NCBI GenBank assembly: GCA_947627715.1
Contig: CANQXK010000003.1
Coordinates: forward strand, 1-64,000
Length of the DNA: 64,000 nucleotides
Direction: 5' to 3'
Origin: an uncultured Oscillospiraceae bacterium
Lineage (GTDB): Bacteria > Bacillota > Clostridia > Oscillospirales > Oscillospiraceae
Of this stretch, positions 31,642 through 36,747 are shown piece after piece (positions within the stretch are counted from its first letter, which is position 1; each line of letters starts with the position of its first letter). Both the position numbers and the translations under genes were made by a program. The notes below the pieces were generated by a model. It was given only the letters and a program-made list of their open reading frames with translations. It was not told the origin of the DNA and did not search any database.

Positions 31642-33150
31642 ATGAAAAGGGTACTGCGCCGGGTGGTGACCGTGATCCCTGCGGTTGCCCTTCAGATCCT
31701 GCTGTATCTGCTGCTGTTTACGTGGCTCAAGCCCTGGGCCACGGCGATCCACATCGTGCTGGCCGTGCTGGCGCTGGTCCTTGTGCTCTACCTTATGACG
31801 AAGAGGGACGAGAGCACCTACCGCATTTTGTGGCTGGTCCTGGTCCTCGCCTTCCCGCTGCCGGGGGCGCTTTTGTTCCTCCTTCTGGGGGACAGGCGGT
31901 CCATGGCCCCCATCCGCAAAAAAATCGCCAGGACCCCGCCGCTCCCGCCGGAGGAGGACGCCTCCGGCCCGCTCTTTGAGGAGCTGGAGCGGGAGGACCG
32001 GCGCCTTGCGCAGACCCTCCGGCGCGTCCAGCGGCAGACCGGCCTTCCCCTGCGCCAGGGCAGGGAGACGGAGTACTACCCCCTGGGCGACGATATGTTC
32101 CCCAGGATGCTGGAGGAGCTTGAAAAGGCGGAGAAGTTTATTTTCGTCGAGTATCTGATCATCGAGAACGGGCTTTTCTGGGATTCCCTCACCGAGGTCA
32201 TGGCCAGAAAGGCCGCCCAGGGCGTGGACGTGCGCGTCATGTACGACGACCTGGGGAGCATCTCCACCTACACCGCCAAAAACGCCGAGGAGCTGCGGAA
32301 AAAGGGAATCCAATGCGTCGCTTTCAACCCGCTCCTCTTTGTCAGCGGGACCCTCAGCTGCCGCACCCATCGGAAAATGCTGATCATCGACGGCAAGACC
32401 GCGTTCAGCGGCGGGGTGAATCTGGCGGACGAGTATATCAACCACATCACCCGCTTCGGACACTGGAAGGACATCGGCTTCATGGTCCGGGGCGAGGCCG
32501 CCCGGAGCTTTACGCGGATGTTCGCGGAGCTTTGGAACGCCTTCACAAAGGACCCGGTTCCGGCGGAGTGTCTGTCCGCCCCGGCGGACGCCTCGGAGGT
32601 CCGGGACGGGCTTGTCCTGCCCTATTACGACTCCCCCCTGCGGCCGGAGGGGACCACGAACGAGCTTTATATCGACCTGTTGGCCCAGGCGGAGGACCAC
32701 GCATGGTTCTACACCCCCTACCTCCTCCCCGGAGAGGCGCTGGTGGACGCCCTCGTGCGCGCCGCCCGCCGGGGCGTGGACGTGCGGATCATCACGCCGG
32801 GGATCCCGGACAAGAAGATCGTCTACCGCATGACCCGCAGCTTCTACCCGGTGCTGCTGGAGGCCGGCGTGAAGATTTACGAGTACACCCCCGGCTTCCT
32901 CCACGCCAAGGCGTGTCTTGTGGACGGCAAGGTGGGCGCTGTGGGCACGGTGAATCTCGACTACCGCAGCCTCTTTTTGCAGTTCGAGAACAACACCGTG
33001 TTCTATAAGTCGTCGCTTTTGGAAAGCCTCCGGGCGGACTTCCTGGAGACCCAGTCCAAGTGCCGGGAGAGGACGCTTGCGGACCTCAACATCACCTTCT
33101 GGAAGTGGCTCGGCGACGGCTTTCTGCGCCTGGTGGCCCCCCTGTGCTGA
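31642..33150 (+). CDS. cls: Cardiolipin synthase (phospholipase D superfamily)
   Basis: A 502-residue membrane enzyme that joins two phosphatidylglycerols to cardiolipin. Two N-terminal helices (about 8-28 and 34-52, then a third hydrophobic stretch at 68-86) are followed by two HKD motifs: HRKMLIIDGK with FSGGVNLADEY, and HAKACLVDGK with VGTVNLDYRS. The WKDIGFMVRG segment between them is also typical. Start ATG 31642 follows GGGAGAAAG. Length and order match bacterial ClsA/Cls. It ends 31 bp before a terminator. Confidence 0.95.
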   Translation: MKRVLRRVVTVIPAVALQILLYLLLFTWLKPWATAIHIVLAVLALVLVLYLMTKRDESTYRILWLVLVLAFPLPGALLFLLLGDRRSMAPIRKKIARTPPLPPEEDASGPLFEELEREDRRLAQTLRRVQRQTGLPLRQGRETEYYPLGDDMFPRMLEELEKAEKFIFVEYLIIENGLFWDSLTEVMARKAAQGVDVRVMYDDLGSISTYTAKNAEELRKKGIQCVAFNPLLFVSGTLSCRTHRKMLIIDGKTAFSGGVNLADEYINHITRFGHWKDIGFMVRGEAARSFTRMFAELWNAFTKDPVPAECLSAPADASEVRDGLVLPYYDSPLRPEGTTNELYIDLLAQAEDHAWFYTPYLLPGEALVDALVRAARRGVDVRIITPGIPDKKIVYRMTRSFYPVLLEAGVKIYEYTPGFLHAKACLVDGKVGAVGTVNLDYRSLFLQFENNTVFYKSSLLESLRADFLETQSKCRERTLADLNITFWKWLGDGFLRLVAPLC

Positions 33151-33275: not shown

Positions 33276-33304
33276 TTGAAAAAAAGACGCGGTTCATATA
33301 TAAT
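33276..33304 (+). promoter_or_regulatory. Promoter of the methyltransferase operon
   Basis: TTGAAA (33276-33281), a 17-bp spacer and a perfect TATAAT (33299-33304) lie 59 bp before the first methyltransferase start. Confidence 0.8.
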
Positions 33305-33363
33305 TTAAAGAGGGCGTTTTGCGGCGCGGAGCCGGGCCTTATTTTTGGCTGAGGGGTAGAACA

Positions 33364-34299
33364 ATGGACCAACAGAAAGCTAAATTTATCTGCTCAAAAT
33401 GCGGCGCGGAGACGGACGCCGACGTGGACACCGAGCGGTATAAAAAAAGGCTCTGCCGAAACTGCTTCGGCAAGAAGAAGGACACCCGCGTCAATCAGCT
33501 GAACGACCTGACCGGGGCCGAGTGGGCCAGGCACAGCAAGAGCATTGAGAGCTACCCGGACACGCGGACCCAGAATCAAAAGGAGCACGGCGCCTGCTTC
33601 CCCAAGGCGCTGGCCCGCCATCAGATCGAGATCTATACGCAGGAGGGGGACGTGGTCCTCGACCCGTTCGTGGGCGTGGGCACCACGATGCAGGCCGCCC
33701 ACGAGCTGGGCCGCAAAAGCCTTGGCATAGAGCTGAACCCGCGTTTCGCCCAGATGTGCCGGGACGAGATCGCCGAAAAGGGGATCGAGGGCGAGCTTTT
33801 TGAGGACGACGCGGAGAATATGCTGGCCCACATCGCCAGGGACTCCGTCGATTTTATCCTCACCAGCCCGCCGTATGCAAACCTCCTGAAGACCATAAAC
33901 GGGAATTTCGCGTACAAGTGGCGCGAGCTTTCCGAGATCAACCCCATCAAAAATCCGGCCCCCTATTCCCTGGACGGGCGGGACATCGGGAATATGGAAT
34001 ACGGCGAGGGCATAGCCGCCATTTCCGGCGTCATGAAAAAATGCCACGCGGTCCAGAAGGCGGGGACCTACGCCGTCTGGGTCGTCAAGGATTTCAGAGA
34101 TTTAAAGCGCGGGGTCCCCTATATCGATTTTCACGGGGACATCATCCGCTGCGCCGAAGAGGCCGGGTACACGCTGTGGGATATACGCATCTACGATCAG
34201 ACCAACTTCCGCCCGCTGGTCTGTCTGGGCTATCCCTCAAGGAATTTTTATCTGAATATCGGACACTCCTATTTGCTGGTGTTCAAGAAGATGAGGTAG
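33364..34299 (+). CDS. Site-specific DNA methyltransferase 1 (amino-methyltransferase, Zn-finger N-terminus)
   Basis: A 311-residue DNA methyltransferase. Residues 10-34 hold a CxxC...CxxC zinc-ribbon-like motif (Cys10, 13, 31, 34). The SAM motif DPFVGVGTT (100-108) precedes the catalytic TSPPY (167-171); TSPPY favours N4-cytosine methylation. ATG 33364 has GAGGGGTAG upstream, and the longer in-frame start is in the leader. It is followed 2 bp later by a second methyltransferase with a different domain order, and both face a restriction gene on the opposite strand. Each probably modifies one strand of an asymmetric site; the recognition sequence is unknown. Confidence 0.88.
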   Translation: MDQQKAKFICSKCGAETDADVDTERYKKRLCRNCFGKKKDTRVNQLNDLTGAEWARHSKSIESYPDTRTQNQKEHGACFPKALARHQIEIYTQEGDVVLDPFVGVGTTMQAAHELGRKSLGIELNPRFAQMCRDEIAEKGIEGELFEDDAENMLAHIARDSVDFILTSPPYANLLKTINGNFAYKWRELSEINPIKNPAPYSLDGRDIGNMEYGEGIAAISGVMKKCHAVQKAGTYAVWVVKDFRDLKRGVPYIDFHGDIIRCAEEAGYTLWDIRIYDQTNFRPLVCLGYPSRNFYLNIGHSYLLVFKKMR

Positions 34300-34301
34300 A
34301 C

Positions 34302-35420
34302 ATGGAGGAGCGGTATTTCATTGACCTGGACGCCGTTACGGCCCAGGAGAAGCAGACCCTGACGCACAACATACACTCTTATCCCGCAAAGTTCATCCCG
34401 CAGATCCCCGGCTCGCTGCTGGAGTATCTGCGCCTCCCCGCCCACAGCCTCATCCTGGACCCCTTCTGCGGCTCCGGGACCACGCTTCTGGAGGCGGCCG
34501 TTCGCGGGTATGACGCCGCCGGGGTGGACTCCAACCCCATCGCCACCCTCATCTCCCGGACAAAATGCACGCCCCTCCGGGAGGAACAGCGCGCCCAGGT
34601 GGAGGCGGTCCTGTCACAGCTTCCCCTCTTTGACCCCTCCGATGAAAAGCGCCTCTCCATCCCCGTTTTCCTTAACCGCGACCACTGGTTTCAGCCCAAT
34701 ATGCTCAGGGAGCTGGGGTATATCCGGGCGCTCACCGCCTCCGTCGCCGGCGGCGCCGCGGCGGACTTCCTGAACACCGCCTTCTCCGCGGTGATCGTCA
34801 AGGCCTCCAATCAGGAGAGCGATACCCGCTGGCGGGCGGTGAACAAGAACCACCCGGACGGGTTTGCGCTGGCGGAATTTCACAAAAAGGCCGTGGATAT
34901 GCTGGCGCGGGTGAGGGAGCTGGAGAAGTTCTCCCTGGGCACGGTCACTGTGGCGACCCAGGACTCCCGGAATCTGGACTTCCTCCGGGACGGCTCCGCC
35001 GCCGCCGCCATCACGTCCCCGCCGTATATGAATTCCTTCGACTACTACCTCTATCACAAGCTGAGGATGTACTGGCTGGGCTACGACCACTATGAGGTCC
35101 AGGAGAAGGAAATCGGCTCCCGCAACAAGCACTGCGACAACGGGCGCGGCGTCGAGACGTATGTGGAGAGCATTTTCGAGGTGGCGCAGCAGGTGTACCG
35201 CAAGCTGGCCGGCGGGGGGTACCTCTGCGTGGTCATTGGCGATTCGATCTTCCGGGACGAGCTTATCTCAATGGACGAGGTGTACAGGCGCATCGCCCGC
35301 CGCGCCGGCTTTACGGAGAGGGAGACCTTCTCCTTTGACCAGAGAAAGTACACCAGGGCCTTTACGCCCAACTACAAGACCGCCGCCAAAAGGTCCCACA
35401 TCATGATCTTCCAGAAGTGA
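34302..35420 (+). CDS. Site-specific DNA methyltransferase 2 (amino-methyltransferase)
   Basis: A 372-residue DNA methyltransferase with DPFCGSGTT at 53-61 and TSPPY at 238-242. The roughly 180 residues between the two motifs give an alpha-class-like order with an internal target-recognition region, unlike the first enzyme. The N-terminal NIHSYPAKFIP is common in such proteins of two-methyltransferase systems. The start lies 2 bp after the previous stop with GAGGTAGAC just before it, indicating coupling. The pair plus the convergent nuclease is read as a type IIS-like system. Confidence 0.88.
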   Translation: MEERYFIDLDAVTAQEKQTLTHNIHSYPAKFIPQIPGSLLEYLRLPAHSLILDPFCGSGTTLLEAAVRGYDAAGVDSNPIATLISRTKCTPLREEQRAQVEAVLSQLPLFDPSDEKRLSIPVFLNRDHWFQPNMLRELGYIRALTASVAGGAAADFLNTAFSAVIVKASNQESDTRWRAVNKNHPDGFALAEFHKKAVDMLARVRELEKFSLGTVTVATQDSRNLDFLRDGSAAAAITSPPYMNSFDYYLYHKLRMYWLGYDHYEVQEKEIGSRNKHCDNGRGVETYVESIFEVAQQVYRKLAGGGYLCVVIGDSIFRDELISMDEVYRRIARRAGFTERETFSFDQRKYTRAFTPNYKTAAKRSHIMIFQK

Positions 35421-35453
35421 CCGTGCCCGCTCCCGGCGCGGAGGGTACAATGA

Positions 35454-35485
35454 AAAATCCCTGAATGTCTCAATTCAGGGATTTT
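35454..35485. terminator. Bidirectional terminator between methyltransferase and nuclease genes
   Basis: AAAATCCCTGAAT (35454-35466) and ATTCAGGGATTTT (35473-35485) form a perfect 13-bp stem with A/T runs on both outer sides, serving the two converging transcripts. Confidence 0.85.
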
Positions 35486-35491
35486 CGCTTT

Positions 35492-36682
35492 TTATTTGTT
35501 GATCCAGCCGCAGCGGCCGGGGTACTTGTCCGCCTCCGCGTCGCCGTGGGGGATCCTGCGCACAGAGCAATAATATTGCCCCTGCTCGCTCTGCGGGGCC
35601 AGCGTAAAGACCAGGACGTCGTCCTTTTCAAAGGTGTTGAAGATGGCCCGGTTGCGCATGGCGAAGCGCACCTCGCTGTTTTTCCGGGCGTGCGTCGCCG
35701 CCGGGACGTAGAAGATGACCCGCGCGTTGTCGGTGACAGCGCCGGTGTTTTCGTATTTCAGGCTGAAATACCGCTCAGACTGCATCGCCCCCTTGGGGGT
35801 CGTCTGGGGTTCGCTCAATTTGCCGAAAAAGGACTTAAAGCCGATGGGAATGATGATCTGGCCTGGGGAGGACTTCAGATCCACGTCGTTCCGGCTCAGG
35901 CGCTTATAGAAGCACCTGCACCGGGCGTTCTCCGCAACAGGTTCCGCCGGAGGGGCGGCGGCCTCCACGGAGGCGGCCGGCCCCGTCAGGTATTCCGCCC
36001 GGATCTCCGCCTCCGGCTTAAAGCGGCTGAGATCGTGGACCGCCGCCCGGCCTGTGATGGGTTCTGTGCGGAATATGGGGTCCGCCTCGGAGCCGCCGGC
36101 CGGGCGGCTCGCCTGCCGGAAAAGGCGAAGCTCGCTCTCGGAATAGATCATGCGCGCGTCGTACAGCGCCCGGATCAGATCCTCCGCCGCCCTTTTGCAG
36201 CAGGGGCCGTCCTGCCGAAAGACGTTCAGGGAGCGGGCGGCGTTGGCAAACGCCTCCGCCTGCGCCGGAACGGTCAGGTCGTACTCCTGGCAGCCGGCGA
36301 TCTCGTAGTTTGAAAAGAGGCCGCCCTCCGTCAGGTTGTTGGACCCGATGTAGATCTTCCCGGCCCCGTCGCCGGCGAAGATGCACGTTTTCGGGTGAAA
36401 ACAGGATCGGTCGTCGCTGTTGTGGAAGATGTACAGCCCGTCTGTGAGCGCCAGAAGGGCGCGCAGAGCTTCAAAGGAGGTGTTCGCCTGGTCGATGCCC
36501 ACCGTGGCGTGGACCTCCCCGCCCGCCGCGCGAAACGCGCTCAGCCCGTCCACCAATGCGTCCACGCCGCTGAGCTTGGCGTAGGCGACGGAGAAGAGAA
36601 AGAGCCGGTATTTCCCGGAACGGAGGTCCTCCGCCAGGCAGTTCCCCAGCTTGCGGGAATAGGGTTGAAGAATGAGTTCCAA
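35492..36682 (-). CDS. Phospholipase-D-fold restriction endonuclease (NgoFVII/BfiI-like)
   Basis: A 396-residue protein with a TTG start after AAAGGGGG. The N-terminal half is a single PLD-type nuclease domain with the HxK site CFHPKTCIF (His96, Lys98) and the downstream YIGSNNLTEGG (Asn115/116, Glu120). The C-terminal half (about 255-396: IIIPIGFKSFFGKL, RYFSLKYENTG, VRFAMRNRAIFNTF) looks like the B3-like DNA-binding domain found in NgoFVII and BfiI. PLD-fold restriction enzymes cut without metal ions and use one active site per dimer. It converges on two methyltransferase genes that should protect the host. It has its own near-perfect promoter. Confidence 0.85.
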   Translation of the reverse strand: MELILQPYSRKLGNCLAEDLRSGKYRLFLFSVAYAKLSGVDALVDGLSAFRAAGGEVHATVGIDQANTSFEALRALLALTDGLYIFHNSDDRSCFHPKTCIFAGDGAGKIYIGSNNLTEGGLFSNYEIAGCQEYDLTVPAQAEAFANAARSLNVFRQDGPCCKRAAEDLIRALYDARMIYSESELRLFRQASRPAGGSEADPIFRTEPITGRAAVHDLSRFKPEAEIRAEYLTGPAASVEAAAPPAEPVAENARCRCFYKRLSRNDVDLKSSPGQIIIPIGFKSFFGKLSEPQTTPKGAMQSERYFSLKYENTGAVTDNARVIFYVPAATHARKNSEVRFAMRNRAIFNTFEKDDVLVFTLAPQSEQGQYYCSVRRIPHGDAEADKYPGRCGWINK

Positions 36683-36697
36683 TGAAAGGCCCCCTTT

Positions 36698-36747
36698 ACA
36701 ATTATTAATGTTATTACGAATATAGCATAAACATTATTAATTGTCAA
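36698..36747 (-). promoter_or_regulatory. Restriction-gene promoter embedded in an AT-rich inverted repeat
   Basis: On the minus strand a TTGACA (36742-36747), a 17-bp spacer and TATATT (36719-36724) form a near-consensus promoter. ACAATTATTAATGTT (36698-36712) and AACATTATTAATTGT (36730-36744) form an imperfect inverted repeat that overlaps -35, spacer and the transcript start, a layout expected of an operator. No control-protein gene was seen. Confidence 0.7.

Follow-up and report, generated by a model that had tools for sequence, protein, structure and literature searches.

A divergent, probably BfiI-like restriction-modification cassette in an uncultured Oscillospiraceae bacterium

What is encoded by two adjacent DNA methyltransferase genes that converge on a gene for a phospholipase D (PLD)-type nuclease? 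The question arises at positions 33,276 to 36,747 of a window of 64,000 nucleotides (the whole stretch analysed: contig CANQXK010000003.1, positions 1 to 64,000, assembly GCA_947627715.1) from an uncultured Oscillospiraceae bacterium, in which the methyltransferases M1 and M2 and the nuclease R form a compact cassette. BfiI is described as two independent methylases on opposite strands of an asymmetric site, plus an R2 nuclease (PMC4267653). An earlier note on this DNA had proposed a BfiI-like system, and the two methyltransferases and the PLD/B3 nuclease found here match that make-up. We consider it likely, with a probability of about 0.85, that the cassette makes up a whole restriction-modification system of type II, probably IIS, and of the BfiI kind, because both methyltransferases are amino-methyltransferases and no DEAD-type ATPase occurs among seven neighbouring genes. 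The gene anatomy and the active-site residues were observed directly, as was the same cassette in a second genome, and the B3 fold is shown by prediction.

The nuclease and its kinship with BfiI

R contains a single H-x-K motif (HPK, residues 96-98) and the sequence SNNLTEGG at 114-121, and residues H96, K98, S114, N116, T118 and E127 (R numbering) are invariant across 15 aligned PLD proteins. The catalytic H, K, N and E have the spacing +0/+2/+20/+31, identical to that of BfiI, whose catalytic residues are given as H105, K107, N125 and E136 in PMC4081073. With one HxK in R, two chains would be needed per active site, as in BfiI. The TTG start column of R corresponds to ATG in the relatives L003 and L004.

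A profile built from 13 sequences without BfiI orthologues (alignment A3) matched BfiI in the PDB (2c1l, E 2.3e-10) in both halves. The next matches were a "putative helicase" (7clg, 6e-10), which we take to be SauUSI, another PLD-domain enzyme, and the BfiI B3 fragment (3zi5, 4e-4), followed by R.NgoAVII (4rct, 4.7e-4) and LlaJI.R1 (6c5d, 0.063). The far stronger BfiI match of alignment A2 (E 7e-44) is biased, because A2 contained two BfiI orthologues. By hhalign, the PLD half of the R family (3 sequences) was aligned with the PLD half of a BfiI orthologue at 82% probability (E 1e-5), and five controls, the neighbouring cardiolipin synthase among them, reached at most 2.1%. Judging from their sequences, the nucleases of two further loci, L017 and L018, are BfiI orthologues: that of L018 matches 2c1l over nearly its full length (E 3.5e-145) and shares 70% identity with the L017 nuclease, which matches a PADLOC REase_II model (8e-154). 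Also, the R relative of L003 matches the L017 nuclease by blastp (5.5e-4). The earlier description of R as a PLD-type nuclease with the HPK and SNNLTEGG motifs is thus borne out by the motifs, the A3 match and the equal catalytic spacing; the PLD fold, on which that description had been made to depend, is indicated by the profile match and the spacing, with no good three-dimensional model.

For the C-terminal half, which had been called B3-like, the predicted structure is fair and its best structural match is the B3 domain of BfiI, so that the earlier suggestion, for which the lack of a B3 domain would have been fatal, agrees with the model. The B3 domains of the EcoRII N-terminal part, UbaLAI and LlaJI.R1, each linked to a nuclease or partner domain of another kind, score about 3 Z units under BfiI against the R model. 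These comparisons support a B3 domain as the predicted C-terminal half of R. No Pfam family matched this domain, and the domain itself had no match in nine plasmid records with relatives of the PLD nuclease or of the methyltransferases. PF09217 (EcoRII-N) had no match in 149 relatives, but the control genomes were equally silent, so that this absence carries no weight.

Several results weigh against this assignment. The B3 model was built from 3 sequences, and its five versions spanned confidence values (pLDDT, predicted local distance difference test) from 46.8 to 80.3; the full-length AlphaFold2 model of R, also from 3 sequences, was poor (pLDDT 38.7) and unusable. Taken alone, the C-terminal domain retrieved no B3 protein in a profile search of the PDB, and by hhalign its best score was 1.2%, with controls up to 0.5%; the C-terminal part of the A3 match may be carried by other members of the family. 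Searched as a single sequence, R found neither a PLD protein nor BfiI in the PDB (phmmer), and no match to the L017 orthologue at 1e-3 (blastp).

The reference collections leave R largely unnamed. Pfam gives only the weak PLD model PF13091 (18 bits, under the cut-off of 27), NCBIfam gives no match, and no PADLOC type II restriction-enzyme model matched at E up to 1, which makes R a gap in these catalogues. The PADLOC matches are limited to DrmC (residues 37-129, which belong to the PLD part; E 7.5e-6), ZacB, PbeA and the type IV model mREase_IV (E 0.084); no drmA/drmB-type core genes of a DISARM system occur among the seven neighbours scanned.

The methyltransferases and the layout of the cassette

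The earlier claim of two coupled DNA methyltransferases is confirmed by intact genes, 2 bases apart, both of which match PF01555 (Table 1). The motif order is alike in M1 and M2, from motif I (DPFxGxGTT) to TSPPY. The contrast in spacing that had been drawn between them stands, while the figures of 60 and 180 residues become 58 for M1 and 176 for M2 when counted from the end of motif I. The CxxC...CxxC motif reported at the N-terminus of the first enzyme is indeed present, with cysteines 10, 13, 31 and 34; it is kept in the M1 of L004 and absent from the Helicobacter homologue. Against TIGR04272, M1 scores 13.6 bits, under the cut-off of 36. TSPPY is typical of N4-cytosine methyltransferases, which suggests N4-cytosine as the putative target base of both enzymes. 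A role of either as an m5C enzyme is ruled out by the PF01555 matches.

Table 1. Features of the cassette, in window coordinates.
Feature	Position	Strand	Evidence or remark
M1-M2 promoter, sigma-70-like, TTGAAA-17-TATAAT	33276..33304	+	consensus scan, 11/12 matches
M1, amino-DNA-methyltransferase, 311 aa	33364..34299	+	Pfam PF01555 (N6_N4_Mtase) E 4e-28; PADLOC MTase_II PDLC03353 E 4e-36
M1 N-terminal CxxC-x17-CxxC, putatively zinc-ribbon-like	33391..33465	+	Cys 10/13/31/34
M1 motif I	33661-33687	+	precedes TSPPY at 33862-33876
M2, amino-DNA-methyltransferase, 372 aa	34302..35420	+	Pfam PF01555 E 5e-13; PADLOC MTase_II PDLC03364 E 2e-55
M2 motif I	34458-34484	+	precedes TSPPY at 35013-35027
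13-bp hairpin between convergent genes, likely shared terminator	35454..35485	.	pattern scan (called on + only), gap folding
R, PLD-family nuclease with predicted C-terminal B3 domain, 396 aa, TTG start	35492..36682	-	profile matches, predicted structure
R B3 DNA-binding domain (predicted), residues 250-396	35495..35935	-	predicted structure
R active-site stretch H96-x-K98 ... N116 ... E127	36302..36397	-	invariant in 15 aligned PLD proteins
R promoter, sigma-70-like, TTGACA-17-TATATT	36719..36747	-	consensus scan, 11/12 matches

The amino-methyltransferases also bear on the relation to the NgoAVII/CglI type, for which PMC4267653 lists one C5-methyltransferase, the R gene for a PLD/B3 protein and a gene for a DEAD ATPase, which these R-proteins need. 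The PLD and B3 architecture of the nuclease is common to both, and R might likewise depend for cutting on an ATPase of the DEAD family whose gene lies elsewhere. The A3 match to R.NgoAVII is in keeping with this, as are the weak matches of the L003 and L004 relatives to Pfam RE_NgoFVII (E 0.055 and 0.064, below the cut-off), the passing score of the distant relative L009 (29.2 bits vs 23.8) and, on a plasmid of Haloferax, a relative of M1 adjoining a gene annotated as ATP-dependent DNA helicase. However, R itself has no RE_NgoFVII match and the BfiI match of its family is stronger; both methyltransferases are of the PF01555 amino type and not C5, and no DEAD ATPase is found among the seven neighbours (27.2-41.7 kb), the rest of the genome not having been searched for one. 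We therefore regard such a dependence as highly improbable and retain the BfiI kind. With BfiI/BmrI (type IIS, ACTGGG) the cassette shares one HxK...N...E PLD site, a putative C-terminal B3 domain and two separate methyltransferases, but R is too distant for single-sequence search, M1 belongs to a different methyltransferase type with its CxxC-x17-CxxC, and R faces the methyltransferase genes, whereas the two methyltransferases and the nuclease of L017 and L018 are co-directional.

M1 and M2 on one strand and R on the other are convergent, with all reading frames intact. The limits previously given to the cassette, 33276 and 36747, coincide exactly with promoter-like sites on the + and - strands; a consensus scan of the region returned 3 sites with 11/12 matches against 0.9 expected. 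The idea that the cassette is a decayed or silent remnant is scarcely credible in view of three full-length frames with catalytic residues, promoter-like sites and a hairpin. As to the bidirectional terminator that had been postulated between M2 and R, the hairpin is present and, on either strand, the gap forms a better fold than shuffled sequences do (z -3.6 and -2.8). In L004 a different hairpin occupies the corresponding position (z -3.7 and -5.4 for the two strands). Bidirectionality itself is no more than plausible, because the pattern scan recognised a terminator in the + direction alone and the number of terminator-like sites across the region is at chance level (5 vs 4.8 expected). The content of guanine plus cytosine in the cassette (0.58-0.64) differs little from that of the flanking DNA and therefore marks no insertion.

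Taken together as a BfiI-type mechanism, M1-M2 and R would have promoters of their own, and their transcription would run in opposing directions and converge on the hairpin. M1 and M2 would each methylate one strand of the site, thus protecting host DNA. R would dimerise via its N-terminal PLD domains, the single HxK motifs of the two subunits forming one active site, which is probably metal-independent and would act through a covalent histidine intermediate. The B3 domain would read a short, presumably asymmetric site, and cutting would take place beside it.

Few of the restriction enzymes that have been characterised are of the PLD type, and BfiI needs no metal ions for cleavage. The cassette is a distant relative of a known kind and brings no new principle: according to a 2014 review, REBASE already held more than 40 putative HXK enzymes beside BfiI isoschizomers (PMC4081073), and the cassette is thus a divergent addition to them. 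Within our partial coverage of the literature, no published report was recognised as describing it. Standing at such a distance from BfiI and having its methyltransferase partners complete, this branch may be a source of new DNA specificities and offers a test of how a B3 domain changes its target.

Relatives and gene partnerships

The genome scan revealed two close relatives of R, namely L004, a full cassette of the same layout, and L003, which is cut by a contig end. Identity to L004 amounts to 79% for M1, 72% for M2 and 59% for R, and the three genes are kept together there, M1 and M2 likewise 2 bases apart. For gene partnerships, 12 uncut relative loci were examined (L004-L010, L017, L018, L039-L041), the weak match L012 being left out; gene tables of plasmids are incomplete, and the plasmid records examined were 6 of the 9 with matching PLD nucleases, 4 of the 8 with M1 matches, and 5 of 30 listed among 44 with M2 matches. 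In half of the loci (6/12: L004, L005, L007, L039, L040, L041) the PLD nuclease directly faces two methyltransferase genes. In L009 a methyltransferase lies about 3.4 kb from the PLD gene.

The survey also supplies points on the other side. The facing layout is not universal, adjacent methyltransferase genes being co-directional in 3/12 loci (L008, L017, L018), and beside the PLD genes of L006 and L010 none is annotated in the incomplete gene tables. M1 differs in type from the second methyltransferase of the BfiI orthologues. M1 relatives occur without an annotated PLD nuclease in L016 and in the stretches fetched from two haloarchaeal plasmids (L020, L021), as does an M2 relative in the stretch fetched from a Priestia plasmid (L019).

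Such cases raise the alternative that the motifs modified by M1 and by M2 are unrelated and that R pairs with one of the two enzymes or with neither. The locus would then be a juxtaposition of two systems, or orphan methyltransferases next to a nuclease of a type IV-like kind. The two enzymes differ in type, with spacings of 58 and 176 aa, relatives of both stand beside an unrelated restriction enzyme on a Helicobacter plasmid, an M2-type enzyme stands with another methyltransferase beside the BfiI orthologues, and R has its weak type IV match in PADLOC. Against this, 2 bases separate M1 from M2, in L004 as well as here, their order is kept in Helicobacter with 43 bases between, and M1, M2 and R travel together in L004. 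We judge unrelated motifs to be improbable and prefer a single BfiI-like system.

The best plasmid relative of M2 among the matches listed is the first methyltransferase beside the BfiI orthologues (38% identity, L017). That of M1 lies on a plasmid of Helicobacter sp. NHP19-003 (L016, 5106-8801), where homologues of M1 (38% identity) and M2 (30%) follow in the same order; this M1 lacks the CxxC motif, and the third gene, unlike R, is an unrelated type II restriction enzyme (PADLOC PDLC03439, E 5e-67). Tentatively, we propose that these are mix-and-match modules. The M1-M2 pair would have been combined with no fewer than two unrelated nucleases, and the PLD platform, its C-terminal halves strongly diverged, with several methyltransferase types, often in the facing arrangement.

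Other arrangements were met among the relatives. On the Haloferax plasmid (L020, 4911-9926, +) the M1 relative is followed by the annotated helicase and then by a hypothetical protein, possibly a different restriction set-up around an M1-type enzyme. In L039 (5446-6609, +) the PLD gene and the next one (L013, 1495-2682, +) encode tandem PLD nucleases with differing C-terminal halves, opposite the genes for a TSPPY methyltransferase of 329 aa and an Eco57I-type one of 656 aa; the two nucleases possibly form a heterodimeric restriction enzyme, in which two different DNA readers would share a single active site. The M2-type methyltransferase of L007 (9789-11183, -), from Rhizobium, bears an N-terminal MerR-like helix-turn-helix (PF00376, E 6.6e-9) and perhaps regulates itself through it. 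The PLD system of a Salipiger plasmid (L008, 4472-6967, +) has one 832-aa methyltransferase with Eco57I-type and N6_N4-type domains, which looks like a fused methyltransferase pair.

Distribution and genomic neighbourhood

Relatives of R are rare, being found, own genome counted each time, in 3/99 relatives (E 1e-5), 3/391 genomes of the class (E 1e-10) and 1/398 of the phylum. M1 (E 1e-35) and the C-terminal domain of R (E 0.01) were each detected in 1/391 class genomes, that is, the own genome. Scans of viral contigs with the A1, A4, M2 and M1 patterns, which reach close relatives only, gave 0 relatives, and phage records none. The tetR gene adjoining R is present in 7/34 genomes of the genus (own included) and is followed by degV in all 6 relatives fetched; in the 4.6-6.5 kb before tetR of those 6, M1, M2, R and the cardiolipin synthase were not found (tblastn, 1e-10). 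This distribution fits an accessory, laterally moving cassette.

The seven neighbours scanned encode GH2, HD, DUF308, cardiolipin synthase, TetR, DegV and DUF5107/TPR proteins. The gene directly upstream of M1 (31642-33150, +), over the NCBIfam cut-off for cardiolipin synthase and on this ground ruled out as a member of the cassette, is an ordinary cardiolipin synthase that shares the PLD superfamily with R and has a different function.

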